From Calothrix sp. PCC 7103 (GTDB taxonomy: Bacteria; Cyanobacteriota; Cyanobacteriia; Cyanobacteriales; Nostocaceae): DNA of 64,000 nt. Positions 1 through 64,000 of this stretch are shown here, piece after piece (positions within the stretch are counted from its first letter, which is position 1; the number at the start of each line of letters is the position of its first letter). The stretch is from contig NZ_KB217478.1 of NCBI RefSeq assembly GCF_000331305.1, forward strand, positions 6,784,317 to 6,848,316, written 5' to 3'. The notes beneath the pieces were generated by a model. It had not been told where the DNA came from. It was given only the letters and a program-made list of their open reading frames with translations, and made no database searches. The position numbers and the translations under genes were made by a program.

Positions 1-866
1 GTTTTGTTTAACTGGTGGTGGTGCTTCGGTTGGAGAAGTGACAACAACGATGTTTTCTTCATCCCTAATTACAGAAGCTTGATTTTGTAATTGTTCGACT
101 TCTTTCAAGTCTTTACTATATATCCCAAACACTTCATAAAGCGTTTGAGCTAAATTTTGTAGTAAGTGAAAGCGGTCTGCAACTTGAATTGCATCGGGTG
201 CGCCTTCTTTAATTCCTTTTTCATAAGCTTTCGCTCTGTCTCGTGAAACAATCTGAATACCAGGATTTTCTTTTAACCATGAGCTTAAGGTTTCAGATGA
301 ACGGTCTTTTAATAATGTAACAGGTTGATTATTTTCTAAATTAACAACGATAGTACCGTAAGTTTTGCATTTACGAAACAAAATCATCTACCCCTATAAT
401 TTTAGAGAATCAGGTGATGGTAAAGGTATTCTACGAACTAAATTTAATAGCGTATTACGACTTGTGTTTAAGCCTAATTTTGTGATAATCTGAATCCTGC
501 TGCACCACCTGATGCTAAACCTATCGCAGTTAATCGAGACGCTAATCTCATAGTTCGACGTGCCCACGGAGCCACAATATCTGTTAATCTTTCAGTAAAT
601 ATTCGTCTTTTACATTCCGTATTGATGCAAAAAAATTTCCTCACACGCAGTTGAAGTAAAGTACCATAGTTCGCCCATGATAAATCAGCTATTTTACGCT
701 CATAGTGGCTATGAATTTTATGTGTTGCCTCATTGCAGACTGGACATTTAACTGCTGTTTGTACTGAAGAAACAAGCACGATTACCTCCCTTCGCTCCTC
801 GTCAATATTACAACTTTCAAGCAGGAGAAGATTTTTATCTGGTAATAAGCTTTTTAGTACTTCCAT
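1..866 (-). pseudogene. ISL3-family transposase remnant, frameshifted and cut by the window edge
   Basis: The first 130 codons (866 down to 474) show the N-terminal Zn-ribbon typical of ISL3 transposases (CPVCN, then C-x4-C in FFCINTECK) followed by a helix-turn-helix-like segment. The reading frame then breaks near 474. It resumes in another frame with RRIPLPSP, breaks again near 390-395 around the first catalytic-Asp motif GVDDF, and continues open to base 1 with the second-Asp motif SRDRAKAYEKG and VADRFHLLQN. At least two frameshifts make it inactive. The C-terminal third lies outside the window. No terminal inverted repeat was identified. ISL3 assignment is from motif order and is fairly certain; inactivity is seen directly. 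Confidence 0.85.
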
Positions 867-950
867 ATTATAATGAAATCTAATATACTAGTATAAATAT
901 TTATTATTTTTATTTTAAAACTAAAAAATTATACAGTCAAATGTCTTCAC

Positions 951-993
951 CCTTACTCCTTCCTTCTGCCCTCTGCCTACTGCCCTCTGCCAA
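951..993. repeat. Short tandem repeat tract, 7-mer type
   Basis: Imperfect iterations of CTGCCCT/CTGCCTA form a short tandemly repeated tract in the spacer between the transposase remnant and the BREX remnants. Heptameric tracts of this sort are widespread in intergenic DNA of heterocystous cyanobacteria. No function is implied. Confidence 0.6.
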
Positions 994-1020
994 GAACGTT
1001 TCCAAAGCTTTCACCAAAAC

Positions 1021-1209
1021 TTGACAAGAACCGCTATTTTTAACGCTTACACTGACACAGAAACGCCTTGGTGCTTTCTCGATACCTATCACCGTCATTT
1101 AGAAAGGCATTGGCATAATTTTGAGTGGGGTTTACACGACCGATACCAAACTTTAGAACAATTGGTAAACCATGCCAGCCAAAACTTTAGCCTCCGTGCA
1201 TTTACTTGA
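1021..1209 (+). pseudogene. Unrecognised coding remnant upstream of the brxL fragment
   Basis: A 62-codon open stretch with no credible start (it opens with TTG and has no ribosome-binding site) rich in Trp, His and Tyr (for example CFLDTYHRHLERHW). It looks like the interior of a larger protein rather than a complete gene. It lies just upstream of, and in the same direction as, the brxL remnant. In type 1-like BREX loci pglZ precedes brxL, so a pglZ fragment is conceivable, but I cannot confirm that from motifs. Confidence 0.3.
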
Positions 1210-1275
1210 TGCCATTAGCGGCGCCGAGTTAGCTAGAATACCAAAGATAGAGATTGCAATTGCAATTTAATTTGA

Positions 1276-2174
1276 AAATCCAAAGTTATATTAGGTGATA
1301 AACAATGCCACAACTTTACAGAAATGGTAGACCACTATTTTTCTCTAGGTTCCCATCTCAACGCGCGTGATGTCAAAGCCGTTCGCAAAACAGTAGCAGG
1401 GTTAGTCAAATTAATTCACCCTAGTGGCGAAGTTACTAAAGAAGACATGACGGAAATAGTCGAAATAGCACTAGAAGGTCGGCGCCGCGTCAAGGAACAA
1501 TTAAAGAAAATGGGTTCTTTCGAGTACCACCAAACCTCATTTTCTTATATAGATATCGAAACGCGCGAAGAACGTTATGTGGGTGTTCCAGAAGAAGGTG
1601 GACGAGATTTAATATCAACTGATCCCCTAGACCCAGGCAGTGTTTATGTAGCTTTGGTTGATGACCAAGCAAAAGTCGGATTATACCGTTTAGAAGTAGG
1701 ATGTGCAGCAGGAACTGGTAAATTAAAGATAGCTGGCGGTGTTGATGGCGCCATGAAAGAATCTATCAACAGAGCATTCGCTTTTATCCAAAGTAATAAA
1801 GTAAACATGGTATAGCCCAAGCTGTTGTAACAACTGATTTTCACATAGAAGCAATTGACTTATTGACAAATCGCGTTAATTGTGGTGTTGGTATTGGCTT
1901 GTTAGTAGCTATATATTCCGCTCTCAAAAAATATCCTGTACAGCCAGGACTTTTAATATTAGGCGACCTCAGCATCCAAGGCAATATTAAAGCAGTTCGA
2001 TCTTTAGCTGAACCATTACAACTTGGAATGGATAATGGAGCTAAAAAAGCATTAATTCCAACTGAAAACAAACGTCATTTTTTAGAGGTATCGGCAGATA
2101 TTATGGAACGGGTTGACCCAATTTTTTACAGTGACCCATTAACAGCAGCAATGAAAGCATTAGGTGTGAATTGA
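1276..2174 (+). pseudogene. brxL: BREX Lon-like protein BrxL, 3' fragment with a frameshift
   Basis: The translation matches the C-terminal half of BrxL, the Lon-protease-like component of BREX phage-defence systems. Segments recognised in order are MVDHYFSLGSHLNARDVKAV, LEGRRRVKEQLKK, SFSYID, and, after a frame change near 1806-1815, DFHIEAIDLL, PVQPGLLILGDLSIQGNIK, NGAKKALIP and DPLTAAMKALG at the end. The frame is closed upstream by TGA at 1273, and the whole N-terminal AAA+ ATPase half is missing. With one frameshift and a lost 5' half the gene cannot make a working protein. No other BREX gene is recognisable in the window, so this is the relic of a deleted system. Confidence 0.8.
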
Positions 2175-2180
2175 ATAATC

Positions 2181-2216
2181 TTAATCCCCCCTAGCCCCCC
2201 TTAATAAGGGGATTAA
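2181..2216. terminator. Inverted repeat between convergent brxL remnant and narM
   Basis: TTAATCCCC at 2181-2189 pairs with GGGGATTAA at 2208-2216. The hairpin sits immediately after the narM stop codon and after the brxL remnant, so it could terminate either side. A clear U-run is lacking; flanks are AT-rich. Confidence 0.45.
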
Positions 2217-2217
2217 A

Positions 2218-2670
2218 TTAATTTAATTTAAATTCTTCTAATGCTTTAGGAAAGTTTTTATTTTCATGTCCAGAGCGGCTAAGTTTAATTAATGCAAATC
2301 TTTCTAAAGGTGATAATGCTGCCCATTGCGGCGCCGTTATATTTACATTATATTCGCTTGCTTCTTCTTGAACGCTCTCTGGTATATTATTTTCATCCAT
2401 CCACGCTGGGTGTGATTCGACAGGTAATTCACTTGGATAACTGCCTGTACGTTGATGTAAAAGATTTTGTAAATTCTGTCGGTAGGTTTCTATTTCTTGC
2501 TCATTTGTACAGGGAAGCTCAACTAAAGCTTGACGCTCTTCTTGAGTTAAGTGGTTCCAATCTGCTAATTTTAATTTGATTCCACAGGTGTCAAGGTTAT
2601 ATCTTGCTTGCATGGGAATACATCGCAAGGAATCAACGAAATCTGTTTCAAATTCAAAGAATTGTGTCAT
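2218..2670 (-). CDS. narM: Nitrate reductase-associated protein NarM
   Basis: A 150-residue soluble protein that I recognise as the cyanobacterial nitrate-reductase-associated family (TIGR02664 type). In Anabaena PCC 7120 the member narM (alr0614) lies downstream of the nir operon and is needed for active NarB, probably by direct contact during cofactor maturation. Family features visible here are the opening FFEFETDFVDSLRCIPM, a central LADWNHLTQEER helix and the near-repeat APQWAALSPLERFALIKLSR. Length fits the family. It is the last gene of the minus-strand nitrate cluster, separated from the psiE-like gene by 72 bp that hold an ATCCGTTAC repeat. Assignment is by motif and context. Confidence 0.85.
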   Translation of the reverse strand: MTQFFEFETDFVDSLRCIPMQARYNLDTCGIKLKLADWNHLTQEERQALVELPCTNEQEIETYRQNLQNLLHQRTGSYPSELPVESHPAWMDENNIPESVQEEASEYNVNITAPQWAALSPLERFALIKLSRSGHENKNFPKALEEFKLN

Positions 2671-2705
2671 ATGTAATCCAAAAAATTCTTATTCATAACA
2701 AGTTT

Positions 2706-2733
2706 ATCCGTTACATCCGTTACATCCGTTGCC
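2706..2733. repeat. ATCCGTTAC tandem repeat, copy 1
   Basis: Three head-to-tail units of ATCCGTTAC ending in GCC lie just beyond the stop codon of the minus-strand psiE-like gene. Related copies lie at the 3' ends of nrtA (about 11.3 kb) and the WD40 kinase (62.34 kb), always in the same orientation to the gene. Confidence 0.7.
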
Positions 2734-2742
2734 AGTAATATT

Positions 2743-3201
2743 CTAATGTCTAGGTTTAGAGTTACTAATGCGGATAATAAAATAACTAATTGCTAAAGAT
2801 AAAACAGCCAAACCTAAACCAATAATATCTATGCCTTCAACTTTATCTAAATCAAGAATAATGATTTTTCTGGCTACCGCAATTAAAGATGTTACGATTA
2901 CTAATTCTACCTGTAATACGTGCTTTTTGAGATAGCCTGTAATATTTTCTAATATTTCTAGGGCAATTAAAACGTTTAAAAACAATCCAAACACTTGGAA
3001 TAATGTCTTATAAAAGCTACCATATTTTGGCGAAATTAATTCTCTGAATGTAAAGGTGATTAAATCAGCAATTGCTACTACAATTACAAGCAACATACAG
3101 ACTGAGAGAACTTTAGCGACAATCACCTCTAGATTTTCGATGATGTGCATAAAGTTTTCGTCTTTGGTCATTTCACGAAATCGTTTAAGTAACCCTCTCA
3201 T
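2743..3201 (-). CDS. PsiE-family inner-membrane protein
   Basis: A 152-residue integral membrane protein with four hydrophobic segments (about residues 30-50, 68-88, 100-115 and 122-146) and the family-like features ENLEVIVAKVLS, LNVLIALEILENITGYLKKH and a basic RKIIILD connector. These match the PsiE (phosphate-starvation-inducible E) family, whose molecular role is unknown. Here it lies between narB (129 bp upstream, with a hairpin) and narM (72 bp downstream), all on one strand. It may therefore be expressed with the nitrate operon, a position comparable to the small unknown gene described between narB and narM in Anabaena. No link to phosphate can be seen. Confidence 0.75.
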   Translation of the reverse strand: MRGLLKRFREMTKDENFMHIIENLEVIVAKVLSVCMLLVIVVAIADLITFTFRELISPKYGSFYKTLFQVFGLFLNVLIALEILENITGYLKKHVLQVELVIVTSLIAVARKIIILDLDKVEGIDIIGLGLAVLSLAISYFIIRISNSKPRH

Positions 3202-3258
3202 CTGCCTTACCCCCTAAAAAATATCTATTGCTTGTATAACAAGAAACACACACACAAC

Positions 3259-3286
3259 AGTACGCTAGAGTTTCCTCTAACGTACT
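3259..3286 (-). terminator. Hairpin downstream of narB
   Basis: AGTACGCTAGAG (3259-3270) and CTCTAACGTACT (3275-3286) form a 12-bp stem with one mismatch and a 4-base loop. It falls in the narB-psiE spacer. The downstream RNA is U/G-rich rather than a pure U-run, so it may be a partial terminator or an mRNA-stabilising hairpin. Confidence 0.5.
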
Positions 3287-3330
3287 ACTGAAGCTTGGTA
3301 ATAATTTTTTAATTCTGACTTGTTAGCAGC

Positions 3331-5541
3331 TTAACATTCCGAGGGTTCCAATTGATAGTGAGTAATTGGTAAATTGATTTTTACAAGTGCAAGGCTAACT
3401 GCACAGGCTTTTAGCTCTGGTTGTAAAGAGTCTGGGCATGATATTGGGTGCGTCATCGCGTTTGCTTCTGCGTTTTCTGCCCATAAGGCGCCCCAATGCA
3501 TAGACACAAATACTGTTCCAGGAGTTATTGCACGGGTTATTTTGGCTTTAAACTTAGCGTTTCCTCGACGCGAACCTACTTCAACATATGAATTTTCAGT
3601 AATATTTAAGCTGGAAGCATCACGTGGATGGATTTCAATGAATGGTTCGGGGTACATTTGTCGAATTTTTTCTATGCGACCCGTTCGCGTTTGTGTGTGC
3701 CAATGTCCGTAAAGTCTTCCTGTTGTTAATATAAACGGATAATCTGGGTCGGGTGGTTCTGCTAAACCGCGTGAATAATAGGCGCCAAACTTTGCCCGTC
3801 CATCTGGTGTAGCAAAACGTAAGTCTGTATATAATCTTTTTGAGTAACGAGTAGAGACGCGATTAATCGCGTCTCTACACTCATCACTGTTTTGAGGGTA
3901 AGGCCATTGAATTGGACTCTGTTTTAATTTTTCGTGGGAAATACCTGTAACATCACAAGGACGTTGACGAGTTAATTGAGTAAATTCGTTATATACATCG
4001 TTCGAGTTGGCGAAAGCGAATTCACCCACGTAACCTAAACGGCGCCCAACTTCTGCAAAAATCTCCCAGTCGGCTTTTGCTTCTCCGGGTGCTGGTCGAA
4101 ATGATTGACATAAAGTTACGACACGTTCCGAATTAGTCATAACACCAGTTTTTTCACCCCACTGTGCCGCTGGTAAAAGCACATGAGCATAAGCGGCAGT
4201 TTCTGTTGGATAATATGCGTCTTGATAAATAGTGAAAGGTGATTTTAATAAAGCTGCTTTTGTACGTTCAATATCTGGCATACTTACTGCTGGGTTTGTA
4301 GCGGCAACCCACAACAAGCCAACATCCCCAGTTTCTAAACCTGTTATCATATCCCACGCAGTCAGACCAGGTAATGGTGATATTTTTCCTCGCTTTATTC
4401 CCCAAAATTGTTCAACTTCTGCGCGGTGTTGGGGATTTTTGATTAAGCGATAACCTGGAAGCAAGTGCGATAAACCACCAGCTTCACGTCCTCCCATTGC
4501 ATTTGGTTGACCTGTTAAAGAGAAGGGTCCACTCCCTGGTCTACCTATTTGCCCAGTCATTAAGTGCAAATTAATAATGGTTCGTACCTTTGCAGTACCT
4601 TCAGAAGATTGATTTACTCCCATTGACCATAACGACAGCACGTTTTTAGAATCAGCCCAATAGCGTGCAGCGGTTGCTAAATCTTGAATCGTAATACCAC
4701 AGGTACGTGCGACGACATCAGGGGAATAATGGCGAATGACTTCTGCAAAAGCTGGGAAGTTACTTGTACATTCGTCGATAAATCCTGTATCAAGGCAACC
4801 CCAACGCATTAATAAATGCGCCATTCCATTCATTAAATCAATATCTGTACCAGGACGAATCGCTAAGTGTAAATCGGCAGCTTCGGCAGTTTGTGTTCGA
4901 CGTGGGTCAACCACAATCATTTTGACTTTGCGGTTCCTTTTGTGGTATTTGGCTAATCGGTTAAAGGCAATAGGGTGACATTCTGCTGCATTTGTACCAA
5001 TTAAAAATGCACAGTCGGTTAATTCTAAGTCGTCGTAACAACAGGGTGGACCATCTGAACCAAAGCTTTGAATATACCCAGATACCGCACTGGACATGCA
5101 CAAACGTGAGTTGGCGTCAAAGTTATTGCTTCCCAGACACCCTTTCATTAGTTTCTGAGCAACATAGTAATCTTCGGTTTGAAATTGACCTGAACCGTAC
5201 ATGCATATTGCTTCGGGTCCAGTTGTTTGCAGTACTTGTTGAATGCGCTTGGTAATTAAATCAAATGCTTCTTCCCAAGTCGCGCGCCGAAATTTCTCAT
5301 TCAACGAGTTCCGCACCATTGGAAAATGCAATCTATTTTTATCTAATGACTCGGCGATAGTGGCGCCTTTCACACATACCATACCCTGGCTCGACGGATG
5401 TGTTTTATCTCCTCGAACTCGCCAAATCGGATTTCCTTCATTATCACGATTTGTTGCTTTTCCATGTTGTGCTGGAGGTGATACTTCAAGTCCACACCCA
5501 ACACCACAATAAGGACATAGAGTTTTGGTTGATTCAGTCAT
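3331..5541 (-). CDS. narB: Ferredoxin-nitrate reductase NarB
   Basis: A 736-residue molybdenum bis-MGD oxidoreductase that reduces nitrate to nitrite with electrons from ferredoxin. The N-terminal cysteine motif CPYCGVGCG (residues 9-17) plus the later CVKG cysteine bind a 4Fe-4S cluster. Molybdopterin-binding segments follow ([64 protein letters not shown]), and the C-terminal dinucleotide-binding domain contains [18 protein letters not shown]. It follows nrtP by 67 bp. One oddity is that a perfect 28-bp dispersed palindrome (3851-3878) sits in frame in the loop just before the KRLYTDLRF segment, adding about nine residues without breaking the frame. NarM downstream is its likely maturation partner. 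Confidence 0.95.
3851..3878. repeat. Dispersed palindrome (GTAGAGACG family) inside narB
   Basis: A perfect 28-bp palindrome whose half-site is GTAGAGACGCGATT. It lies within the narB reading frame and is translated. Related palindromes lie at 23.24, 36.96, 49.31 and 49.41 kb, all of them intergenic or at gene ends. Confidence 0.9.
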
Positions 5542-5608
5542 AAAACCTCAAGAGAAAGCAGCGTACTACCCTTTTTTCGTGTAGGTAGGGCAATAGCCCC
5601 ACATACAA

Positions 5609-7120: not shown

Positions 7121-7335
7121 ATTACCCTTTCTCGAACAAAAAATACGTAAGCCAAAATCAAGACTATCCAAGCAAATAGTCTTATCTACTTATTCAAATA
7201 AAACCAATAACTAACTCAAAGTTCTTCCTTTGTGTTCTTTGTGTCTACCCTGCGGGAAATCCTTCGGATTATGTGGTTCCTTATCTTACACATAAGTATT
7301 GTGTATTAATGAATCTAAAAAGCTCTCTTGTATAC

Positions 7336-7377
7336 AACTTAGAACTTAGACGCAACTATATTGGTATCACCTGTAAC
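7336..7377 (-). promoter_or_regulatory. Putative NtcA-activated promoter for nrtP-narB
   Basis: Read on the minus strand, GTTACAGGTGATAC (7377-7364) differs from the NtcA consensus GTA-N8-TAC at one position. It is followed after 22 bases by TAAGTT (7341-7336), fitting the TA-N3-T -10 box at the spacing typical of class II NtcA promoters. It lies just past the nrtD terminator and about 220 bp before nrtP. This is an inference from pattern alone. Confidence 0.5.
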
Positions 7378-7394
7378 CATTTGAAAGTATCCAT

Positions 7395-7421
7395 GAAAAA
7401 AACGCATTGCTTCAATGCGTT
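7395..7421 (-). terminator. Rho-independent terminator after nrtD
   Basis: A perfect 9-bp stem, AACGCATTG (7401-7409) with CAATGCGTT (7413-7421), and a 3-base loop, followed on the minus strand by a run of U (7395-7402). It is 28 bp beyond the nrtD stop and separates nirA-nrtABCD from nrtP-narB. Confidence 0.85.
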
Positions 7422-7448
7422 ATAAAAGATACTCACATAATTAAAGCT

Positions 7449-8279: not shown

Positions 8280-8297
8280 ATAATTATAAGTAATTAT

Positions 8298-10298: not shown

Positions 10299-10340
10299 TG
10301 TTAGGGGGAAAGGGTAAAGGGTAAGGGGATAACATACGAG

Positions 10341-10368
10341 CGCACTCAGCACTCAGTACTCAGCACTT
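10341..10368. repeat. Short tandem repeat (ACTCAGC/ACTCAGT) between nrtB and nrtC
   Basis: Iterated ACTCAGC-type heptamers fill part of the 76-bp spacer between the nrtB stop and the nrtC start. This DNA is open in the nrtC frame and creates a false N-terminal extension of NrtC. Confidence 0.65.
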
Positions 10369-10374
10369 TCTACT

Positions 10375-11247: not shown

Positions 11248-11281
11248 ATTTATATTTTACTTATTTTTGTAGTGGGGATTT

Positions 11282-11351
11282 GCAACGGATTTGAACGGAT
11301 GTAACGGATAGGAAGAAGCAATCATCCGTTACATCCGTTATATCCGTTGCC
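11282..11351. repeat. ATCCGTTAC repeat, copy 2, in inverted arrangement
   Basis: ACGGATGTAACGGAT units on the left and ATCCGTTACATCCGT units on the right form an imperfect inverted repeat in the nrtA-nrtB spacer, directly after the nrtA stop codon. The arrangement could fold in mRNA and modulate the ratio of abundant NrtA to NrtB; that role is inference. Confidence 0.65.
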
Positions 11352-12676: not shown

Positions 12677-12717
12677 TCTGTTTGTTTATTTATGAGTGTG
12701 GTTGAATTATTGATCTT

Positions 12718-12745
12718 GTGGAATGGGTATCCTTGCCCGTTCCAA
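12718..12745. repeat. Dispersed repeat (GGAATGGG...CCCGTTCC), copy 1
   Basis: An imperfect inverted repeat, GTGGAATGGG then CCCGTTCC, in the nirA-nrtA spacer. Close relatives occur at 26.33 and 31.15 kb. It could form a hairpin between the two coding regions. Confidence 0.6.
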
Positions 12746-12751
12746 ACCTTA

Positions 12752-14299: not shown

Positions 14300-14460
14300 A
14301 ATCGCTTCCATTACGTCGTAGTTCAATGCTCCGGTGACCGTATCCCAATATCAACCGTTTAGGTTTGCGCTATTGCACCCAAATTACCGGGATGAAATAT
14401 ACACGTTTGTACGTTAAGAGCGAGACTTGGATACTGGGTTAGTGACTCTTTACATAACTT

Positions 14461-40304: not shown

Positions 40305-41642
40305 TTATGATTTCTCAGAAAGAATCGAAAGCCCGACGGTTTCACCATCTTTGAGAGGTTTACCGCTTCTCACAACATAAGACTCGCCTGCTTGCAACCC
40401 TGATAAAATCTCAACGTTTCCATTACTTCTTTGCCCAAGCGTCACGGTTCTCGCGCTTACCGTTGGTTTTGCGGCGCCTTGTTGCAGCACAAATATCGTG
40501 CCCTGACGACTTTGATTTTCTTCTTGTCTTGCTTTATTTCCTGATGCGCTTTCAGTCAGTGCTGTCACTGGTATAACTACTCGCTGTGCGGTATTAGTAT
40601 CAAAAGCGACTCTTGCTAAAAGTCCGCTGCCTATCTTAGCATTGCTATTCTGTATTTCCACCTCAACTGGTATTAAGCGCGCGGTAGCATCTGCGACTGG
40701 GGAAATACGGGCAACTCGACCTGTATATGTTTGATTGGGAAACGCATCTAAACTGACTCTTACTGATTGTCCAACTCGAATATTCCCTATTTCTAACTCT
40801 GAGAGTTGAACCACAACCTTGACGCGGCTAAAATCGCTAATTTTTAAAACTTCATTACCTGGTTGTAATAAGTTACCTGGTTCGGAAACTTTTTCTGCCA
40901 CTACACCATTAATAGGAGATATTAACCTAGCATAAGAGCGACGTTTTCTAGCTTCGGCAACAACTGCTTGTTGGGCAACAACTCGACCTTGAGCAGTTGC
41001 AACAGCTTGTTGTTCTGTACTAACTTGTGAAATTGCCGCACGTAAAGCTTGGGCAGCAGTTTGTGCTTCGGTACGACTAGTTTGTGCAACTTGTTCAGAA
41101 ATGGCGCCTTCTTTAAATAATGTTTGTTGACGGTTAGCATCAGATTGCGCTTGCACAAGTTGTAACCGTAAGCGTTCAACTTCAGCTTTTCGGTTGACTA
41201 TTTGTGTATTCGTTCTAGCAACTTCTGATCTTAATGAAGCAAGTTCAGCCTCTGCTTGATTTAATGCTGTTACTAACAGTGCATCATCTACTTGCCCAAG
41301 CGTTTGTCCCTGCTTAACAGTGCTACCTACATCAACCGAAAGCGCTAATAATTGCCCTTCTATTTGTGAGCGCAATGATACAGTTCGATATGGCGCCGTT
41401 GTCGCAGTAAACTCTGGTTTTTCTTGCAGTACGCCTGTTTTGGCTATAGCTACATCTACAGGTGTCGCTCTATTTGCAGTTGCAGCAGGTTGCTGTGATT
41501 GTGCATCTGCTTTATCCTTGACAGAGGCGCCGCAACCCGCACACAAAAACCCAAGACCAAGTACACAAGTAACTAATAATTTATTACTTTGTATCCTTTT
41601 AGTATAAAAGTATTTACCCACGTCAATTTTCACGTTAATCAC
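40305..41642 (-). CDS. RND efflux periplasmic adaptor lipoprotein
   Basis: A 445-residue membrane-fusion protein. Signal peptide residues about 22-37 end in the lipobox LCAGC. A barrel-sandwich/lipoyl half follows (LRSQIEGQLLALSVDVGSTVKQGQTLGQV), then a long coiled-coil hairpin rich in Ala/Gln (about 120-220), the second lipoyl half (RLISPINGVVAEKVSEPGNLLQPG) and the beta-barrel domain (VRVSLDAFPNQTYTGRVARISP). It bridges the RND transporter just downstream to an outer-membrane channel. Length and layout are standard for the HlyD/AcrA class. Confidence 0.9.
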   Translation of the reverse strand: MINVKIDVGKYFYTKRIQSNKLLVTCVLGLGFLCAGCGASVKDKADAQSQQPAATANRATPVDVAIAKTGVLQEKPEFTATTAPYRTVSLRSQIEGQLLALSVDVGSTVKQGQTLGQVDDALLVTALNQAEAELASLRSEVARTNTQIVNRKAEVERLRLQLVQAQSDANRQQTLFKEGAISEQVAQTSRTEAQTAAQALRAAISQVSTEQQAVATAQGRVVAQQAVVAEARKRRSYARLISPINGVVAEKVSEPGNLLQPGNEVLKISDFSRVKVVVQLSELEIGNIRVGQSVRVSLDAFPNQTYTGRVARISPVADATARLIPVEVEIQNSNAKIGSGLLARVAFDTNTAQRVVIPVTALTESASGNKARQEENQSRQGTIFVLQQGAAKPTVSARTVTLGQRSNGNVEILSGLQAGESYVVRSGKPLKDGETVGLSILSEKS

Positions 41643-41871
41643 CTAGCTAACGTCTGAATAAGCTTTCATTGATAAAAAACCAAATATACGAACGACGAAC
41701 TTGAGTTTTATTTACCTATAGCAACTAGCACTCGCTTATTCGTTATTAGTACAAATAATACGGGTGCTTAACAATATGTACTGAGTGACAGGTTATATAT
41801 AAGTATACTATAAAGATTCTTAAGTTATGTTAACTCTATCAAAGGATTGAAAATAAGCTTATTTCTTAGGT

Positions 41872-42210
41872 TCAGTCAACTACTTGCTGTATAGGTATGT
41901 GAATACAAAACTCGGTTCCTTGTCCAAGCACAGAAAAACACTTTAATTTACCATGATGCTTATCCGTAATGATTTGGTAGCTGATAGACATTCCCATACC
42001 TGTACCTTTGCCAACTGGTTTAGTTGTAAAGAAAGGGTCGAAAATACGCTGCTTAATTTCATCGGGAATACCACATCCATTATCAGCAATTGTAATTTGA
42101 ACCCAAAATGCATTTAGCATATAAGTACTAATAGTAATTACAGGGGTTTTGACTTGCCCGTTCGTTATTCACTCGAAGAGTGTATCGATAGCATTTGCCA
42201 GTATATTCAT
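41872..42210 (-). pseudogene. Histidine kinase HATPase domain remnant with an internal stop
   Basis: The C-terminal 82 codons contain the ATP-binding G1 box [12 protein letters not shown], the F box [13 protein letters not shown] and the G2 box GTGMGMSIS. In the same frame upstream, after TGA, lies the N box MNILANAIDTLFE. The N box and G boxes are thus separated by a single premature stop, and the dimerisation and sensor regions are missing. It abuts the 3' side of the NACHT gene. An 82-residue translated peptide could not be a working kinase. Confidence 0.8.
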
Positions 42211-42328
42211 AGTCTATTAATTATCTAAAAATCTATATTAATAATCCCAACATCATTCATGACGTTTAATTCTTGATATCGCTCCATTGCAGCAGTTAAT
42301 ATTGAGCTATTAAAGCTCCAGGGTTTTG

Positions 42329-45300
42329 CTAAAACTTCTTCCAAAAAACTAGACCACACTCTACTTTTTCATCCTTTATGGGTATTTCTTTTAGCATGTT
42401 AGCCCAGGCTTGCTCTTGTTCGATAGTTCTTGTCGATTGTAAATTTTTAAGTAGCATTTCTCTGTATTTTATGTCATCAATTGGATAGTTAGATATGCTA
42501 AGAATATCTATTCCAATCAAAGAGTTTTTAGTGCCAGAATTTACAAGTTTTAAAGCTATTTCTAAATTAAATTCAAATTTAATTATTTCTCGAATGTCTT
42601 CTTTTGTAACTACCCGATGTCTTACTAATGAAACAGCTATACATTTTAATACAAAAGCGCTTCCTATGCTAAATGCTTCATTATCATGATTTGTAAATGA
42701 GAGTAACCACTGCGTTATAGAAGGTAATTCATTTGTAGAAAACTTTACTATAAATACATCTAAATATTGTTTCATTTCCCAAATTAAAGTAGGCGTTAAT
42801 ATTGTAAAAATCACAGATACCATATTTTCTTCATGAAGTGTATAAGCAGAAAGTTTTAAAAAGAAAATAACAATAAGAGTCTTGCAACAAATCCCAGAAT
42901 AACTAGACCAATGAGCAAGCATCAATTTTAATAAATGTTTGGCTCTATCAAAAATGTCTGTTTCTTCAATTGACCATTCTCTATCGCATAAATGCCATAA
43001 TAATCTCTCTAGCTTTTTATCTTGTTCTATGGCATCTTCTGCTGCTCTTAATATCTCATTTATTTGCTCGCCTTGAAATGTAAGATGTCGTGTTTCTTCT
43101 GTAGTAAATACATGTGCTTCTAATAAATCTTCTATAGTTATGCCAATTTTGCTAGCTAAAGGAACCAAACTTGGTAGAATTTCACTTAGTGATGTTTGTG
43201 TCTCGATAGCAAATACAAATCTTTTAACACAATTAATGTCTTTAGATTTAGCTAAATAATTAGTGATAGACTCATTTATTTTGTTACAAATTACGGCTTG
43301 ATTCGTAGCATCTAAATAATCTAACAATTTGCTAATATCTTGACCTCTTTCATAATGTAATTCAAGTGATAAAGACAAAAGAGGGTAAAATTCATTTAAA
43401 TTTATATGATTCCACCACTTACGCGGTACAACACTTGTTTTTAAAGTTAAACTTAATTGTTCAAATAATAAATATATATCATTTAACTCTGGTTCTTTAG
43501 CAATTAAATATATACACCATAAAATAACTCTAAGCGAGGGTATTAAGTTATAACGATTAAGTAATTTATTTACAAAATCAACAAGATCATTAGAGAAAAA
43601 GGTAAAAGAGTTTTGCTTTGTAAGACTATTTCGCAAATTTAATGGATGTAATACCCCAAAATCTTCATATTCATTTAATAATTCGGATGTATGTTTATAA
43701 GTATATAATCTATAGTAAGAAATTAATCGTAAACATTTTAACAACAATATTAGTTGTTCTGATACTGTATTTGGCTCTATCAAATCCAATGTAGGAATTG
43801 ATTTACTATCCAACATGTGATAGCGATATGAAAAGTTATTTATAAAAAATATTTCTGCAAGTTCATTTGCTTGAGTCGCTGTAGGAGACCACGCTTTTAA
43901 TAATTCCTCTGCATAATCTTTGACATGAAACCATAAATAATATCTATCATTAATTAATAACCTTTGATTAAAAATCTTGTTATGATTATCCCAATAAGCC
44001 TGTAAACGCTCTGCCATCCATAAAGGATCAGATTTATATCTTAAAGCCAGGTTAAGTGCAAAAACTACATTGTTTACTTGGTTAGTATGAAGCAAAGCAT
44101 CAATCTTATCTTTAAATACTTGGTTGGTTTCAAAGTGTCTACCGTAAAGTTCTAATGCTGTTTTTAAGCATGAGTCTGGTAGAGAACGTAGCTTCTCTTC
44201 TAATACAGGACGCAAATGCTCGCTTATATCTTCCTGTGATAATCGCTGTATGAATGATTTTAGCTCATGTGTCTGTGCTTGTGTTAATCCTGTTTCTAGA
44301 ATTTTAAAACCATATTCTATAAAATCATATTGTAAATCTGGATTGATATTACTAAAAGCTCCATCACTCGACACTTCAATCGTAAACCAAGCTCCTGGTC
44401 TTAAGTAATGATTTCTTTTTTCTTGATCAACCTCTTTACACATTCTTAATATTTTACTAGCCTCACCCTTAAAACTACGAGCTATTCGACCAACAAAAAA
44501 TAAAGCTACATTTCGCCAATGTTCTAAATAAATGATGTTTTTTAGCCTTTCAAAACGTTGCGATGTATCTTCAGCATTTTCTACTAAGTAAGCTGATGCA
44601 AAAAACTCTTGAAACGAGCGGATGTCAAAGCCAAATAAATCATTTGATTCTGTGATTAAAACTAATCTATCTCCATCTCGAAGTAACTTCTCCATCTTAG
44701 AATTTATAACTTCTGAAGAGGAACGTTTACTTTGTTGACGTAAGAAGTCGTAAATAGCAGTACGAAAACCACTACTAGTGAAACGAGATTGAACATTTTC
44801 CTCTGCGGCTTTAAGATGTAATATGTAGCCTAGATAAGCGTGTAATGCAAATAGAGTAGACTCATCACTTTGAATAATTCCTTTATCTTTGCTCTTTTCT
44901 CTTGCAAATATAACTTCCCAGTATCTATAAAATAAGTCTTCTCTTTGGCTAGGAGGACGACCTCTTTTTGTAATAATAAGTAATATAATTGTTACATAAA
45001 GAGGGCTTGTTAATAAAGCACATGTATTATTATCGTGCTGACATTCTTCAAGAGTTGAAATAATTCTTTGTTCTTCTTGTTTAAATCTTTTTGCAACAAT
45101 CCATTTTTCTGCATACTCCTGAACTTTTTTTGATGATAACTGAACTAAATCTAAATGCAAAAAACGTTTTGAATTAAAAAAACTTGTATATTTTTTATCA
45201 AATTCTTTCGGTCTAGAAGTAGCTACAATCATCAAGTTTGCATTTAAAGTATCTGCAAAAGAAAGAAAATTTTGAATACGTCCAAGCATTTTATTCTGCA

Positions 45301-45715
45301 ATTCTGGTACTACAACTTCGTCAAGTCCATCTAATATTAAAAGGCAGGGACGGCAGCTAAGAATATGTTGAATATTTTTGGGTGAGACTTGGTTAGGTCG
45401 CGATGTTAATTTATTTATATTTTCTACTGCTATATATGCTTCCAGTGTATCAAATTCAGGATTATTTGCTAGCCACTGAGCAAAGTACTTAAGTACTATA
45501 CAAAAGGGAATACGTGGAGTTTTTGGCTCTTCAAAATTATACTCTTTGCCAAGCAACTTTGCACGATGAACTTGAGCGAGCTGCTGTCCCAATGTCGATT
45601 TACCCTTTCCAGGTCCACCGATAATAACTACTCTTGGATAATACTCTTTTAGAAGACAATCCATAACTGAAATATCTCCGTATTTATCTGTCTTAAAAGG
45701 GTATGTCATCTTCAT
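42329..45715 (-). CDS. NACHT-family STAND NTPase, putative defence protein
   Basis: An 1128-residue protein with the NTPase at its very start: Walker A VIIGGPGKGKST (about 30-41), Walker B CLLILDGLDEVV (124-134), sensor motif IVATSRPKEF, and a winged-helix-like RPPSQREDLFYRYWEVIF segment. After about residue 430 the chain is a long helical region that probably forms the ligand-sensing arm. The N-terminal effector-type region is encoded by two small upstream frames; the nearer overlaps this gene by 23 bp. At the 3' end a T6 run lies near the stop, and in the -1 frame coding-like sequence continues to 42225. No GGCGCC sites occur here. Bacterial NACHT proteins often protect against phage; that role is inferred. 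Confidence 0.85.
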   Translation of the reverse strand: MKMTYPFKTDKYGDISVMDCLLKEYYPRVVIIGGPGKGKSTLGQQLAQVHRAKLLGKEYNFEEPKTPRIPFCIVLKYFAQWLANNPEFDTLEAYIAVENINKLTSRPNQVSPKNIQHILSCRPCLLILDGLDEVVVPELQNKMLGRIQNFLSFADTLNANLMIVATSRPKEFDKKYTSFFNSKRFLHLDLVQLSSKKVQEYAEKWIVAKRFKQEEQRIISTLEECQHDNNTCALLTSPLYVTIILLIITKRGRPPSQREDLFYRYWEVIFAREKSKDKGIIQSDESTLFALHAYLGYILHLKAAEENVQSRFTSSGFRTAIYDFLRQQSKRSSSEVINSKMEKLLRDGDRLVLITESNDLFGFDIRSFQEFFASAYLVENAEDTSQRFERLKNIIYLEHWRNVALFFVGRIARSFKGEASKILRMCKEVDQEKRNHYLRPGAWFTIEVSSDGAFSNINPDLQYDFIEYGFKILETGLTQAQTHELKSFIQRLSQEDISEHLRPVLEEKLRSLPDSCLKTALELYGRHFETNQVFKDKIDALLHTNQVNNVVFALNLALRYKSDPLWMAERLQAYWDNHNKIFNQRLLINDRYYLWFHVKDYAEELLKAWSPTATQANELAEIFFINNFSYRYHMLDSKSIPTLDLIEPNTVSEQLILLLKCLRLISYYRLYTYKHTSELLNEYEDFGVLHPLNLRNSLTKQNSFTFFSNDLVDFVNKLLNRYNLIPSLRVILWCIYLIAKEPELNDIYLLFEQLSLTLKTSVVPRKWWNHINLNEFYPLLSLSLELHYERGQDISKLLDYLDATNQAVICNKINESITNYLAKSKDINCVKRFVFAIETQTSLSEILPSLVPLASKIGITIEDLLEAHVFTTEETRHLTFQGEQINEILRAAEDAIEQDKKLERLLWHLCDREWSIEETDIFDRAKHLLKLMLAHWSSYSGICCKTLIVIFFLKLSAYTLHEENMVSVIFTILTPTLIWEMKQYLDVFIVKFSTNELPSITQWLLSFTNHDNEAFSIGSAFVLKCIAVSLVRHRVVTKEDIREIIKFEFNLEIALKLVNSGTKNSLIGIDILSISNYPIDDIKYREMLLKNLQSTRTIEQEQAWANMLKEIPIKDEKVECGLVFWKKF

Positions 45716-46031
45716 CCTCTAAAAAAGAAAAAACTTCAGATTTTAAATCCAGTGGCAATTGTTCTTTAGGTTTAGCATTAAGGTCAATAAACACCTGTTT
45801 TAGAAGTGTAAGACGTTCTGGATCAGTCTCACCACCTTGATCTAACTCTGCAAATCCATCATCATCAAAACATTTAGCAATATACAGTTTTAAAGTTTCC
45901 TCAAGAACTGATTCTAATTGTTTAGGAGGGAGATACAAAGGCTGACTTTCTAATATATCATTATGATGGTCAACTTTTTTAGTTGCTGATTTCGGACGAT
46001 TACCCCATATTAATTCTAACTGCTTAAAATT
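45693..46031 (-). CDS. Middle reading frame of the NACHT locus
   Basis: From the TAA at 46032 this frame is open to 45693 in the same phase as the upstream 120-residue frame. The only standard start is TTG at 45938 (81 residues), but coding-like sequence (FKQLELIWGNRPKSATKK) begins right after the TAA. It contains IAKCFDDDGFAELDQGGETD followed by DPERLTLLKQVFIDL, which I associate with the segment before the NTPase in cyanobacterial NACHT proteins. It ends in CCC-TTT-TAA inside the start of the NACHT gene, 23 bp overlapping and one frame away. It may be a separate coupled gene or a piece of a split one. Confidence 0.6.
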   Translation of the reverse strand, partial: NFKQLELIWGNRPKSATKKVDHHNDILESQPLYLPPKQLESVLEETLKLYIAKCFDDDGFAELDQGGETDPERLTLLKQVFIDLNAKPKEQLPLDLKSEVFSFLEDEDDIPF

Positions 46032-46394
46032 TTATTGTACTTTATTTGAGTGCCAAATAAAAAAGGTAAATCGTCTTATTCCCTTACTTTTTTCACTCGA
46101 TTCGCTTTGCTCTTCTATAACTCCTAAATCTTTTAGACGATCAATAGTACTTTGAATTTCTTGTATTTCTTTTTTGAGCCTAAAATCATATTTAGATTTA
46201 ATAAAATCACTATTGAGCAGGAGTGCAAGATTTTTTAATGTTGTTTTTATTTTTAGTTCAGGACGATTACTATCTTTTTTGTGCCATTCAAGTAATAGGT
46301 TGTCAGCTTCTTTACCATCATAGTTTAACAAAAACTTTATTAGAAGCTTCGCCCGTTCTAAAGGTTTTTCTCCCCAGTTATCAGTTCGTCCCAT
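46032..46394 (-). CDS. First reading frame of the NACHT locus, N-terminal effector-associated-like domain
   Basis: A 120-residue basic helical protein starting MGRTDNWGEKPLERAKLLIKF and ending RRFTFFIWHSNKVQ before TAA. I recall similar short N-terminal domains in cyanobacterial STAND proteins, where a Trp-His segment like FFIWH is followed in the same chain by a W-x3-RP-x-KS-like segment; here that second part lies just past the stop, in frame. So the TAA may be a nonsense change. No catalytic motif is visible. It begins the minus-strand NACHT unit, divergent from the nuclease-DarTG genes. Confidence 0.6.
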   Translation of the reverse strand: MGRTDNWGEKPLERAKLLIKFLLNYDGKEADNLLLEWHKKDSNRPELKIKTTLKNLALLLNSDFIKSKYDFRLKKEIQEIQSTIDRLKDLGVIEEQSESSEKSKGIRRFTFFIWHSNKVQ

Positions 46395-46429
46395 AGACTT
46401 AGTTACTTATGTAAGGGTCTTGAGAAGGT

Positions 46430-46581
46430 TTGGGTTAACCCAAGCGTACCCCAAACACTACCTAACTATTCTAAAGGACTACTGGTAAAAAATGTTTGGG
46501 GTACTCCCAAACTAGCCCCAAGCTGTATACCCATATATTGCAAGCCTTTGAGTCGTTTTTAGATACCTCTAGGCTTGGGGC
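46430..46581. promoter_or_regulatory. Divergent control region with nested inverted repeats
   Basis: TTGGGTTAACCCAA (46430-46443) is a perfect 14-bp palindrome. GTACCCCAAAC (46446-46456) pairs with GTTTGGGGTAC (46494-46504), which can instead pair with CCCAAAC at 46506-46512. GCCCCAAGC (46515-46523) pairs with GCTTGGGGC (46573-46581). They lie in the 231-bp gap between the NACHT unit and the nuclease gene, so operator or attenuator functions are plausible. Confidence 0.55.
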
Positions 46582-46625
46582 AGTATGCAAGATTTATCTT
46601 TGGATTAGCGTTAAAAATTTAACCT

Positions 46626-47414
46626 ATGACCCAAAAACATATTAGACGAAAGATAACAGCAAATCCTTACCTACCTCAAATTACTGGGTTTCAAGAAGCA
46701 TTTTCACAATCTGAAGCATTATCAAACGTTGATGAACCAATGTCTAACAATTACTCCAATCAAATAAAAATGACACAACCAGCAAAAAAGCGCTTAAAAC
46801 CTTATATTTGGGTAACTTGGATTTCTAGCTTAATGGGAAATGAAAAGCAGTGTAAATACACAGCGTGGTTTTCTGCTCACTACCAGTTTGCCAAACGCGA
46901 AAGTGGCTATGATTCTTCAGCACATGACGAAATGGTTAGCCAAAGGGTAATACAACATAAAGCTCAAGGGTTTGCAACATATGTTGAGGATGAAAACTCA
47001 TTCACAATTAAGGGCGAAACTTGTGGTATAGCTGGTAAGCCTGACATTGTAGTAGAAGCAGGTCAACCTATTATTGAGGATTGTAAATCTGGTAAGCGCA
47101 AAGAAGCACATCGGATGCAGGTGCTTATTTATATGCTGCTATTTCCGCTTTCTGGGCAAGGTAAAAAGCTGTGTCAAGCAAGAACTCCTGCGGGACGACT
47201 TATTTATCCTGATGGTGTGATAGAAATTTCTCCATCAGAAGTTGACAAACAATTTGTAGAGTTTTTTCGTCAAACGGTTGCGATAATCAGCGGCTCTGCT
47301 TCTCCTACTCAGGCGCCCAGTTATTGGGAGTGCCAATACTGTAGTATTCCCAGCCCAAACTGCTCTGCTAAACTTGACGCGGAAAATGGCGCGAGTCATC
47401 ACGACCTGTTTTAG
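46626..47414 (+). CDS. PD-(D/E)XK superfamily nuclease, Cas4/RecB-like
   Basis: A 262-residue protein with the RecB/Cas4-type nuclease core: a His in HKAQGFATYV, the Asp in AGKPDIVV, the D-x-K motif IIEDCKSGKR and the helix HRMQVLIYMLL with the QxxxY pattern. The C-terminus has WECQYCSIPSPNC, a partial cysteine cluster that recalls the 4Fe-4S-binding cysteines of Cas4/AddB, with only three Cys visible. The N-terminal 60 residues are polar and variable. It lies upstream of darT-darG by 167 bp on the same strand and is divergent from the NACHT unit. No CRISPR array is present. Its DNA-processing role in this island is inferred. Confidence 0.8.
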   Translation: MTQKHIRRKITANPYLPQITGFQEAFSQSEALSNVDEPMSNNYSNQIKMTQPAKKRLKPYIWVTWISSLMGNEKQCKYTAWFSAHYQFAKRESGYDSSAHDEMVSQRVIQHKAQGFATYVEDENSFTIKGETCGIAGKPDIVVEAGQPIIEDCKSGKRKEAHRMQVLIYMLLFPLSGQGKKLCQARTPAGRLIYPDGVIEISPSEVDKQFVEFFRQTVAIISGSASPTQAPSYWECQYCSIPSPNCSAKLDAENGASHHDLF

Positions 47415-58582: not shown

Positions 58583-58596
58583 GCAATAAATTCCAA

Positions 58597-61266: not shown

Positions 61267-61310
61267 AAAATAAATGACATGGAATATTTGCACTCCATGT
61301 CATTTATTTT
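61267..61310. terminator. Bidirectional terminator, 17-bp perfect stem
   Basis: AAAATAAATGACATGGA (61267-61283) and its perfect complement (61294-61310) enclose a 10-base loop, with A/T runs on both sides. It lies between two convergent genes. Confidence 0.85.
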
Positions 61311-61337
61311 GTTGGTATTAAAAATAACCTATGTTAA

Positions 61338-62231
61338 TCAATACTTTTGTGCAGGTTCTTCCATTGGTCTACCTTTAGGAAGAGGTAACATCGGGCGCCT
61401 GTCATCAAAAGGCATAGGAATATACTGAACGCTAGGTCTACCACCTTGAGGTTGTGGGTACATATCCATCAAATTGTAAATTGAACGGGGAAGACCAACA
61501 GTCACAGGTAAACCCATTTCGGTAGCTTCTTCAACAGTAATAGGATAATCGTGAGTAACACGTCCAGTTGTTAAAGCGTCAATAATACTTTCAATATTCT
61601 CTGGTTTTACCTTTTGTTTGGGTATGGAGTCTTTAAGCAATGTCCGTACAAACCGCTGCACCTGCGCGATAGCTTTACGCGACAAGTCAGCCATAATTAA
61701 GGTTTGGTCATCAACTTCGCCAATTGGTTTATCTTCTACAACCTTAATAATGCTAGCAGCAGGGAAATTACCTAACTGTGGGTCAACCGGTCCAAGCACT
61801 GCATTAGCATCCATGACAATTTCATCAGCGGCAAGAGCTAGCATGGTACCACCGCTCATTGCATAGTGTGGTACAAAAACTGTAACCTTAGATGGATGAC
61901 GAATCAACGCACGGGCAATTTGCTCAGTAGCTAGTACCAAACCACCAGGTGTATGTAAAATCAAATCGATTGGAACATCATCTGGAGTGAGGCGAATCGC
62001 GCGTAAAATTTGTTCAGAATCTTCAATAGTAATATAACGAGATAAAGGAATCCCTAACAAACTGATGGATTCTTGTCGGTGAATAAGTAAAATCACCCGG
62101 CTTTTACGTTCTTGCTGGAACTTTTGTAACGAACTGAAACGACGATACTCTGTTTGGCGCCGTTGCCAGATCGGTTGCAGCGAGGAGAGCAAAAGAAAAA
62201 TCCAGAATAAATCACCGATACCGAAGCCCAT
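61338..62231 (-). CDS. Membrane-anchored ClpP-fold serine protease (SDH/SppA-like)
   Basis: A 297-residue protein with an N-terminal membrane helix (about 5-22) and a Clp/crotonase-like protease domain. The oxyanion/first-strand motif is LILHTPGGLVLATEQIA, the catalytic Ser126 lies in HYAMSGGTMLALAADEIVMD, and a Lys/Asp partner probably follows in the YPITVEEATEMGLPV region. It matches the SDH (serine dehydrogenase-like) proteinase family, common in cyanobacteria. The C-terminus is Pro-rich. It would cleave membrane or signal peptides; substrates unknown. Confidence 0.85.
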   Translation of the reverse strand: MGFGIGDLFWIFLLLSSLQPIWQRRQTEYRRFSSLQKFQQERKSRVILLIHRQESISLLGIPLSRYITIEDSEQILRAIRLTPDDVPIDLILHTPGGLVLATEQIARALIRHPSKVTVFVPHYAMSGGTMLALAADEIVMDANAVLGPVDPQLGNFPAASIIKVVEDKPIGEVDDQTLIMADLSRKAIAQVQRFVRTLLKDSIPKQKVKPENIESIIDALTTGRVTHDYPITVEEATEMGLPVTVGLPRSIYNLMDMYPQPQGGRPSVQYIPMPFDDRRPMLPLPKGRPMEEPAQKY

Positions 62232-62338
62232 AATTATTAATCTTGGTTAAAAAATAGTAGTTGCCGCAATTTATTGTCACAATTTTTGGCTAACCACATT
62301 TCTACCTAAAGAGTTAAACTTTGTATTTTCCGACAAAT

Positions 62339-62358
62339 CATCCGTTACATCCGTTGCC
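62339..62358. repeat. ATCCGTTAC repeat, copy 3
   Basis: CATCCGTTACATCCGTTGCC. It overlaps the 3' end of the kinase gene, whose last codons and TAA stop are read from the repeat on the minus strand (ending WQRM). Confidence 0.75.
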
Positions 62359-64000
62359 AGTCTTTGTTACGCCAAATTTTAATAGTGTCGTCGTCACTCG
62401 CACTAACAAGAGTCCGTCCATCGGGGCTAAAAGCAACAGTCCTAATGTAATTATTATGACCACTTAAAGTACAAATCTCCGTTTCAGTACTTACATGCCA
62501 AAGTTTAATCGTTTTATCCCAACTACCACTAGCAAGGATTTGCATATCTTGACTGAGTGCAACAGATGAAACAGCACCTTGGTGTCCTGTAAACGTTTTC
62601 AACATTCTGCCTGTAACACCGTGCCAAAATTTAATCGTCTTATCGCTGCTAGCACTAATAAGAGTTTCACCAGTTGCATCAAAAGTCAGACTGTTTACAA
62701 AAAACGAATGACCTACCAATGTACGTATTTCTCGACCAGTACTAACTTGCCATAACTTAATACTACAATCGGCGCCTGATGACGCGATACACTGACCATC
62801 GGGGCTAAAAGCTACAGATAGCACCGCATCAGTATGACCCAAAAAAGTGTTAATAACATCACCTGTACTAATAAGGATAAGTTTGATGCTACAGTCTGAA
62901 CTTCCACTTGCTAAGTACTTCCCATTGGGACTAAAAGCAAGAGAATTTACCCAATTAGTATGAGTGTTTAAAGTACGTATATTCTTACCAGTATTTAAAA
63001 ACCACAGTTTAATAGTATTATCCCAACCACCACTAGCAAGTATTTGCCCATCTGGACTAATAGCTACTGTCCAAACTGAGTCACTATGTCCAGCAAACCA
63101 GCGTCCAAAATTGCGGATATTACGACCTGTAGATAAATTCCACAGCTTTATATTATTGTCACCACTACCACTTACAATCAATTTTCCATCAGAACTAATT
63201 GCCACAGCATGAACCATACCCGCATGTCCTTTAATAGTACGGGTGCATTGCCATGTAAACTGAGGTGTAATTGGTGGTTTGGATGATTTAAGTATGATTT
63301 TGGGTGGAGGTGTTGCTGGTGATATTGTATTGGATAAGTGTATATCCTCAACATCTATAGAACTGGCAAAACTAGATAAAAGTGATAACCATTCTTTTAC
63401 AGATTGAGGACGATACTGGGGTTGCATTGCCATTGCTTGCATAATAGCCCGGTCAACACTAGTACTGATATTCGGATTAAAATGACTTGGTGGTAAAAGT
63501 GGTGTATTACGGTTACGTTCGTCAGCACTAGTGGGTACAACACCAGTTAATAAAGTGTATAACGTCGCAGCTAAACCATAAACATCAATATACTCGCCAC
63601 GTGGCGCCTCAAGTTGATATTGTTCAGGAGGTGCAAACCCTGGAGTTCGATAGACAGTGTGACGCTGTACAACACCAGGTATAAATTCTCTAGAAATGCC
63701 AAAATCAATTAATACAGCTTCTGGTTTACCCGCACGAATGATAATATTGCGCGGTTTAATATCTCGATGTAGCAAACCTTTTTGATGAATAACAGTTAAT
63801 GCATCTCCAATTTGCTGAGTGTATAAAAGCGCTTCTTTCTCTGATAATATACCTTGTTCTCTTAACCGCTTGCCTAAATCATCACCTTCGATATACTCCA
63901 TGACGATACAAGGTAATTCATACTCATCAAAAATATTTTCAATTTGCACAATATGAGGGTGACGACACACTGCAAGACGCACCCCTTCCGAGCGAAAATC
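62345..64000 (-). CDS. Ser/Thr protein kinase with seven WD40 repeats, 5' end outside the window
   Basis: The frame is open to the right edge, so the N-lobe with the ATP-binding Lys is missing from view. Seen are the hinge CIVMEYIEGDDL, the catalytic loop HRDIKPRN, the DFG motif in LIDFGISREF, the activation loop with TPGFAPPEQY and GLAATLYTLLTG. After a linker, seven WD40 repeats of about 42 residues follow (each GH...D, with IKLW endings), enough for one seven-bladed propeller. Such kinases are typical of filamentous cyanobacteria and probably respond to protein partners. The stop lies inside an ATCCGTTAC repeat. Confidence 0.92.
   Translation of the reverse strand, partial: DFRSEGVRLAVCRHPHIVQIENIFDEYELPCIVMEYIEGDDLGKRLREQGILSEKEALLYTQQIGDALTVIHQKGLLHRDIKPRNIIIRAGKPEAVLIDFGISREFIPGVVQRHTVYRTPGFAPPEQYQLEAPRGEYIDVYGLAATLYTLLTGVVPTSADERNRNTPLLPPSHFNPNISTSVDRAIMQAMAMQPQYRPQSVKEWLSLLSSFASSIDVEDIHLSNTISPATPPPKIILKSSKPPITPQFTWQCTRTIKGHAGMVHAVAISSDGKLIVSGSGDNNIKLWNLSTGRNIRNFGRWFAGHSDSVWTVAISPDGQILASGGWDNTIKLWFLNTGKNIRTLNTHTNWVNSLAFSPNGKYLASGSSDCSIKLILISTGDVINTFLGHTDAVLSVAFSPDGQCIASSGADCSIKLWQVSTGREIRTLVGHSFFVNSLTFDATGETLISASSDKTIKFWHGVTGRMLKTFTGHQGAVSSVALSQDMQILASGSWDKTIKLWHVSTETEICTLSGHNNYIRTVAFSPDGRTLVSASDDDTIKIWRNKDWQRM

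Follow-up and report, generated by a model that had tools for sequence, protein, structure and literature searches.

The hexamer GGCGCC is the alternate highly iterated palindrome (HIP) of the cyanobacterium Calothrix sp. PCC 7103, and the counts reported here suggest that this known element, now confirmed, extends to the whole genus around that strain, the Dulcicalothrix/Calothrix PCC 7103 group (seven of seven genomes). The window referred to below is a stretch of 64,000 nt from this strain (contig NZ_KB217478.1, positions 6,784,317 to 6,848,316). The enrichment in PCC 7103 was already published in 2015, when GGCGCC was described as its alternate HIP and the usual HIP1 palindrome (GCGATCGC) as lacking in abundance (Elhai, 2015; PMC4390886). 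The published frequencies of HIP1 and CAGGCGCC, 14 and 159 per Mb, agree with the 14.1 (163/11.584 Mb) and 158.3 per Mb ((1852+1816)/2/11.584) obtained here, a pair of values matched by none of the other six genomes of the genus. That report was based on one genome and fragments of strain D253, whereas here all seven species share GGCGCC. No match was found in the literature for the genus-wide extent, the orphan GRCGYC-type methylase, the imbalance of gains and losses or the enrichment of CGCGCG described below. Our reading is that HIP1 was replaced by GGCGCC a single time, that the replacement originated with an orphan methylase and that the present sites are an inherited relic in decay; we regard the chances for and against it as even.

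An earlier note on this DNA had estimated by eye about 92 GGCGCC sites against about 4 expected and had seen no HIP1, and both statements are accurate: the window holds exactly 92 sites, base composition predicts 3.8 (a maximal-order Markov model 45.5), and neither HIP1 nor CGATCG occurs in its 64,000 nt. The standardised excess of GGCGCC is the highest in the window among hexamers with an expectation above 0.5. The note would have given up its proposal if the enrichment were not genome-wide or if codon bias alone explained it. The whole genome (11,584,393 bp in 12 contigs) contains 17,704 GGCGCC against eight copies of the reversed control CCGCGG, and in 1.04 Mb pooled from four genomes of the genus, window included, the observed-to-expected ratio (O/E) under a dinucleotide model is 16.9, the first rank among hexamers with an expectation above 5. 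As a palindrome far above compositional expectation throughout the genome, GGCGCC thus behaves as a HIP does. As for codon usage, 100 synonymous-codon shufflings that left the protein and the codon counts of every gene unchanged gave means of 23.4, 20.3 and 26.4 sites where 325, 248 and 306 were observed (genomes G000, G001 and G003; O/E 13.9, 12.2 and 11.6), and codon bias is therefore excluded as the cause. When the sites were placed on 47 hand-picked open reading frames (ORFs) covering 83% of the window, 87 of the 92 fell inside them (50, 14 and 23 in frames 0, 1 and 2; Gly-Ala in frame at 50), with a median gap of 458 bp between sites. The claim of sites in all core genes went too far, since 14 of the 47 ORFs have none and one long stretch is empty (Table 1), and the suggested search for an extended octamer yielded nothing that stands out (TGGCGCCA 13 against 12.3 expected, AGGCGCCT 5 against 7.4).

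The extent of the system was followed in 100 genomes, among them seven of the genus (G000 to G006) and 53 from as many other genera in the family. GGCGCC occurs 7,475–20,380 times per genome in all seven (1,150–1,711 per Mb; reversed control 1–8) vs. 0–530 times in the 53 others, and HIP1 occurs 31–163 times vs. 535–7,734, the lower bound of the latter range being set by G028 (535 in 10.7 Mb), itself weak. Over 76 loci from HIP1-bearing relatives (1.57 Mb in all) the O/E of GGCGCC is 0.07, as compared with 16.9 in the genus. The genome counts, together with Elhai (2015), support the note's proposal of an alternative highly iterated palindrome in a lineage without abundant HIP1. GGCGCC resembles HIP1 in being a GC-rich palindrome spread over the whole genome at about one copy per kb; HIP1 is read by methyltransferases (Elhai, 2015; PMC4390886), and GGCGCC has a candidate enzyme of this kind. 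The two differ in the word and in that HIP1 is low in this genus. Alternate HIPs were taken in the same paper to be sporadic, non-persistent and not clade-wide; inheritance of GGCGCC throughout a genus contradicts this view for the present case. Low HIP1 was also observed in G028, G066 (134), G077 (206) and G079 (673), which may have other alternate HIPs or none. Separately, G067 and G095 contain 2,493 and 1,031 GGCGCC (controls 38 and 21) and HIP1 is high in both; G067, considered as an independent case, has about 50% GC in the DNA sampled.

A second palindrome, CGCGCG, is enriched and is limited to the genus among the family genomes searched. Its O/E is 6.3 in the genus vs. 0.45 in the 76 outgroup loci, and the seven genomes contain 3,257–8,759 copies (320–730 per Mb, with the maximum in G003) vs. 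13–505 in the 53 others. The window has 22, and the main text of Elhai (2015; PMC4390886) makes no mention of the word.

The recent history of the sites was read from an alignment of 264 kb of G000 with four close species and two outgroups. These close species differ by 6–7% or less of nucleotides in the window, and the dynamics refer to the last ~5% of divergence. Among the five species GGCGCC underwent 70 singleton losses and 6 singleton gains, with 97 sites fixed; taking G004 as the reference gave 68 losses, 7 gains and 98 fixed, and a separate four-genome count 63 losses and 6 gains. Other hexamers of GC 3–6 show 1.62–1.79 gains per loss, and none of the 228 hexamers that had 30 events or more has a lower ratio than GGCGCC (Fisher p 5e-20, overlapping words not being independent). 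Its loss fraction is ordinary (0.419 vs. 0.421 for other hexamers of GC=6, which have 3.3 gains each on average). On the G003 branch gains are low too (10 vs. 12 losses; controls 4.7–10). The absence of recent upkeep is well supported, and it differs from the report of Elhai (2015; PMC4390886), where no decay was found: here gains are rare. Creation or maintenance of sites at present, one of the properties that a HIP might be asked to have, was not found on the recent branches, although there is no agreement that this property defines a HIP. Lost sites mostly became GGCACC or GGTGCC (51 of 70), and silent changes at the site centre were transitions in 45 of 46 cases vs. 56 of 88 in like codons (Fisher p 3.7e-6); a first loss spectrum (17 of 39) had given the initial hint of a hotspot of 5-methylcytosine (5mC) deamination. 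Regarding the protein context, 12 Gly-Ala sites had 20 or more outgroup sequences; Gly-Ala was retained at 76% or more in six of them and at 15% or less in the other six, and overall retention at such sites was 54%, vs. 57% when all dipeptides are taken and 35% for Gly-Ala elsewhere.

The window encodes one C5 cytosine methyltransferase, P0001 (Table 1), which was rejected as the cause of GGCGCC since near full-length relatives (55–73% identity) are found in 39 HIP1-type genomes outside the genus; it is probably the RCCGGY enzyme DmtD. Among the C5 methylases of the seven genomes the candidate is P0002, which has the catalytic PC motif (PF00145, TIGR00675, GGPPCQDF) and whose group is present in all seven at 81–100% identity (the 83% copy represents G006, where the likely syntenic copy is cut by contig ends). 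The copies of the genus form one clade (support 1.00), with a RuBisCO-like protein and a GHL10 glycosyl hydrolase-like protein as neighbours; outside the genus the group was found in 21 of 93 genomes (20 longer matches and one fragment of 113 residues). P0002 resembles the BsaHI/HindVP family, which reads GRCGYC: it is of the same C5 type and shares the catalytic motif and TL-motif region with homologues adjacent to the HindVP-type restriction endonuclease PF09519. Its PCQDF and target-recognition region YQRRGIFSIDEPSPTIRSVNRP are nearly identical to those of the partnered relatives, and the TL-motif region (R at −11, G or A at −10, TI, then NRP) agrees with them as well, a comparison made with these homologues and not with the letters of Figure 8 in PMC2413257, which gives a spacing of nine under an uncertain counting rule. 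Therefore no change of specificity is visible, and on this likeness P0002 should act on GGCGCC and presumably methylates GG(5mC)GCC. The central C is the base methylated by M.BsaHI (Neely and Roberts, 2008; PMC2413257); according to Elhai (2015; PMC4390886), the methylated position was known for no GRCGYC-specific enzyme.

The genus differs from the BsaHI/HindVP restriction-modification systems in its missing partner. Of the 100 genomes, 18 have PF09519, and each of these is one of the 21 carriers of the P0002 group outside the genus (beside the methylase in 17, on another contig in one; broken or partial in at least seven of the 18); it was detected in none of the seven genomes of the genus. 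A long methylase match without the endonuclease was also seen outside the genus in G027 (277 GGCGCC) and G050 (3 GGCGCC). A second copy of the methylase, the trigger suggested by Elhai (2015; PMC4390886), appears dispensable: a second group of GRCGYC-type copies was not found in G001 and G004, two of the seven genomes (E ≤ 1e-40), and such a copy is therefore not required for high density today. Among four 20-kb stretches around second-group methylases, two hold 61 and 60 GGCGCC, more than any of the 74 reference bins (mean 31.6, maximum 47), an excess noticed after the fact; the other two hold 42 and 29 and are not unusual. The stretches L280 (G002:C1:6562001-6582000) and L281 (G005:C38:1-20000) have about 3 GGCGCC in each kb, double the mean of the chromosome. 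A phage-type integrase lies in L280, and a reverse transcriptase and tandem repeats resembling CRISPR arrays lie in L281. No viral contig with a mobile-element copy of the methylase was confirmed.

Taken together, HIP1 would have given way to GGCGCC a single time, on the branch from which the Dulcicalothrix/Calothrix PCC 7103 group arose, and all seven members would have inherited the new word. Ancestral methylation by the orphan P0002 may have biased the repair or fixation of mutations towards GGCGCC, a causal role that we infer. The process appears to be weak or off at present, as seen on the recent branches and as proposed in general; new sites would arise at about the background rate and old ones be lost at the ordinary rate, mostly by C-to-T change at the central CpG, so that today's abundance would be largely an inherited, decaying relic and not a signal under present upkeep. 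A more specific form supposes one genus-wide switch, at the time when the nuclease of a GRCGYC restriction-modification system disappeared and HIP1 gave way; methylation-biased mutation then placed, in a burst, some two or more GGCGCC in each kb of genes and intergenic DNA, with CGCGCG besides, and stopped, the fossil fading by 5mC deamination. This form is tentative, and we think it more doubtful than probable.

Several observations weigh against the relic reading. Eight further sites, present in two of the five species and absent from the outgroups, are possible gains, and the older stem leading to the five species has 23 gains against 4 losses (ratio 5.75; controls 4.1–4.7 for words of GC 3–5 and 1.7 for GC=6), with no net loss; the process may therefore have ended late or may only pause. 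Loss is uneven, with 2 of 163 sites in G004 and 21 in G000. In a two-state model GGCGCC is far from equilibrium (likelihood ratio test 82), but 55 of 94 control words fail too, and a two-class model with branch-specific gains was unstable; equilibrium modelling was therefore discounted and only the counts were relied on. When the controls are conditioned on the outgroups, the rate of central transitions shows no increase at the sites (0.080 vs. 0.145); the deamination hotspot, backed by the singleton controls and weakened by these, is no more than possible. With regard to the enzyme, G050 lacks the endonuclease and has only 3 GGCGCC, so the orphan state alone does not predict enrichment. Carriers of the P0002 group outside the genus are poorer in GGCGCC (median 0.64 vs. 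5.3 per Mb, 14 vs. 39 family genomes, p 0.004, uncorrected for kinship), and the enzyme alone is therefore insufficient to explain the enrichment. The link of enzyme and enrichment amounts to one clade and hence one event. It was also observed that G004 has a lower loss of control words, but by less.

Of the other explanations, the active mismatch repair directed by GmeC that was published by Elhai (2015; PMC4390886) comes closest, although we judge it somewhat improbable. In that model a MutH-like protein nicks opposite G-(5mC) and mutations that create GG(5mC)GCC are preferentially retained up to a density of about one site per kb. The central-C methylation that it requires was reported for M.BsaHI (PMC2413257), and the density of 1.15–1.71 per kb exceeds the proposed set point, so that a silent ratchet and neutral decay are allowed by the model itself; the overshoot is left without a reason, however, no ratchet is visible in 6 gains to 70 losses, the suggested trigger is missing from G001 and G004, and the nicking protein is hypothetical. 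Words one change away, such as GACGCC/GGCGTC, are scarcer than in relatives, with a deficit of 2,292 for a GGCGCC excess of 3,184, but similar deficits exist elsewhere (TAGCTA 2,077, AGATCT 1,882) and CGCGCG has none (−1,266), which leaves this mass balance suggestive and not specific. Selection for a function of the sites in chromosome organisation, recombination or DNA uptake is distinctly unlikely. It was first hinted at by pairwise conservation, higher than for other GC-rich hexamers (73% vs. 40% to G003, 53.5% vs. 26.6% to G001), and the wide, even spread, with 1.71 sites per kb in core and 1.25 per kb in accessory regions, would suit it; the pairwise excess is expected from absent gains alone, and purifying selection was set aside once the lack of gains accounted for it. 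The per-site loss is ordinary, silent change at GGC|G is 31 of 84 at sites and 15 of 41 elsewhere, and a balance would need gains equal to losses.

Very-short-patch repair by Vsr, turning GGTGCC into GGCGCC at methylated sites, would yield exactly this word from a central-C methylase, but it is very improbable: PF03852 was found in none of 60 genomes, all seven of the genus included, and in 5 of 14 controls, an exclusion that reaches as far as PF03852 recognises Vsr enzymes, and GGTGCC is not depleted (O/E 1.15 in the 1.04-Mb pool). The earlier note's idea that the sites are kept by a methyltransferase or a repair process thus stands in part, as all seven genomes have a methyltransferase expected to act on GGCGCC, whereas the balance of losses and gains speaks against "kept" and the missing PF03852 against Vsr repair. 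A bias of codons, dipeptides or composition, to which the Gly-Ala sites could point, has a negligible chance given the shuffled counts, the depletion of GGCGCC in relatives and the near absence of CCGCGG.

The longest site-free stretch of the window, with its NACHT-domain gene, is possibly a recent acquisition, and another region looks like a nitrate assimilation cluster (Table 1). In the 1.04-Mb pool many palindromes are almost absent (for example GTCGAC 0, GCATGC 0, TTCGAA 1, CCATGG 1, CGTACG 1) and GATC and GGCC are scarce (O/E 0.24 and 0.12), which is strong restriction-site avoidance.

Table 1. Features of the 64,000-nt window, in window coordinates.
Feature	Position	Strand	Remarks
GGCGCC sites, part 1 (starts)	1220, 1481, 1747, 2330, 3487, 3781, 4041, 5362, 5828, 5894, 6397, 6598, 6674, 7737, 9234, 9400, 9792, 9905, 10528, 11102, 12453, 12617, 13103, 13409, 15553, 15910, 17724, 18358, 19338, 20186		
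GGCGCC sites, part 2 (starts)	22384, 23223, 23520, 23826, 23848, 24372, 25984, 26387, 26621, 26789, 26972, 28162, 28373, 28714, 29110, 29170, 29750, 30505, 30688, 31640, 33481, 34973, 35042, 35500, 36286, 36507, 36909, 37366, 37642, 38101, 38150, 38471, 39124, 39767		
GGCGCC sites, part 3 (starts)	40061, 40473, 41103, 41392, 41526, 47312, 47457, 48708, 50808, 50891, 51023, 52689, 52857, 53601, 53838, 54979, 55371, 56912, 58083, 58965, 59160, 59915, 59937, 61252, 61394, 62156, 62771, 63603		
C5 cytosine methyltransferase P0001	31206..32318	-	370 aa; not the GGCGCC marker
Longest GGCGCC-free stretch	41532..47311	.	spans the NACHT-domain gene
NACHT-domain gene	42329..45715	-	1128 aa; PF05729 match, E=8.7e-8
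Region resembling a nitrate assimilation cluster	3331-14326		Molybdopterin oxidoreductase, NMT1-type/ABC transporter and nitrite/sulphite reductase domains

The function of HIP sites is a thirty-year-old question. The case made for selection on HIP1 rests in part on the rarity and non-persistence of alternate HIPs (Elhai, 2015; PMC4390886), and an alternate HIP inherited vertically throughout a genus removes that reasoning for this case. The imbalance of gains and losses tests upkeep directly, and the same count can be made for HIP1 wherever several close species are at hand: HIPs would be by-products if HIP1, too, is lost at the ordinary rate and rarely gained, and if its gains and losses balance, HIP1 would be under upkeep and GGCGCC not. 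Should the burst that then stopped prove true, HIPs would be records of past methylation episodes and not working signals.

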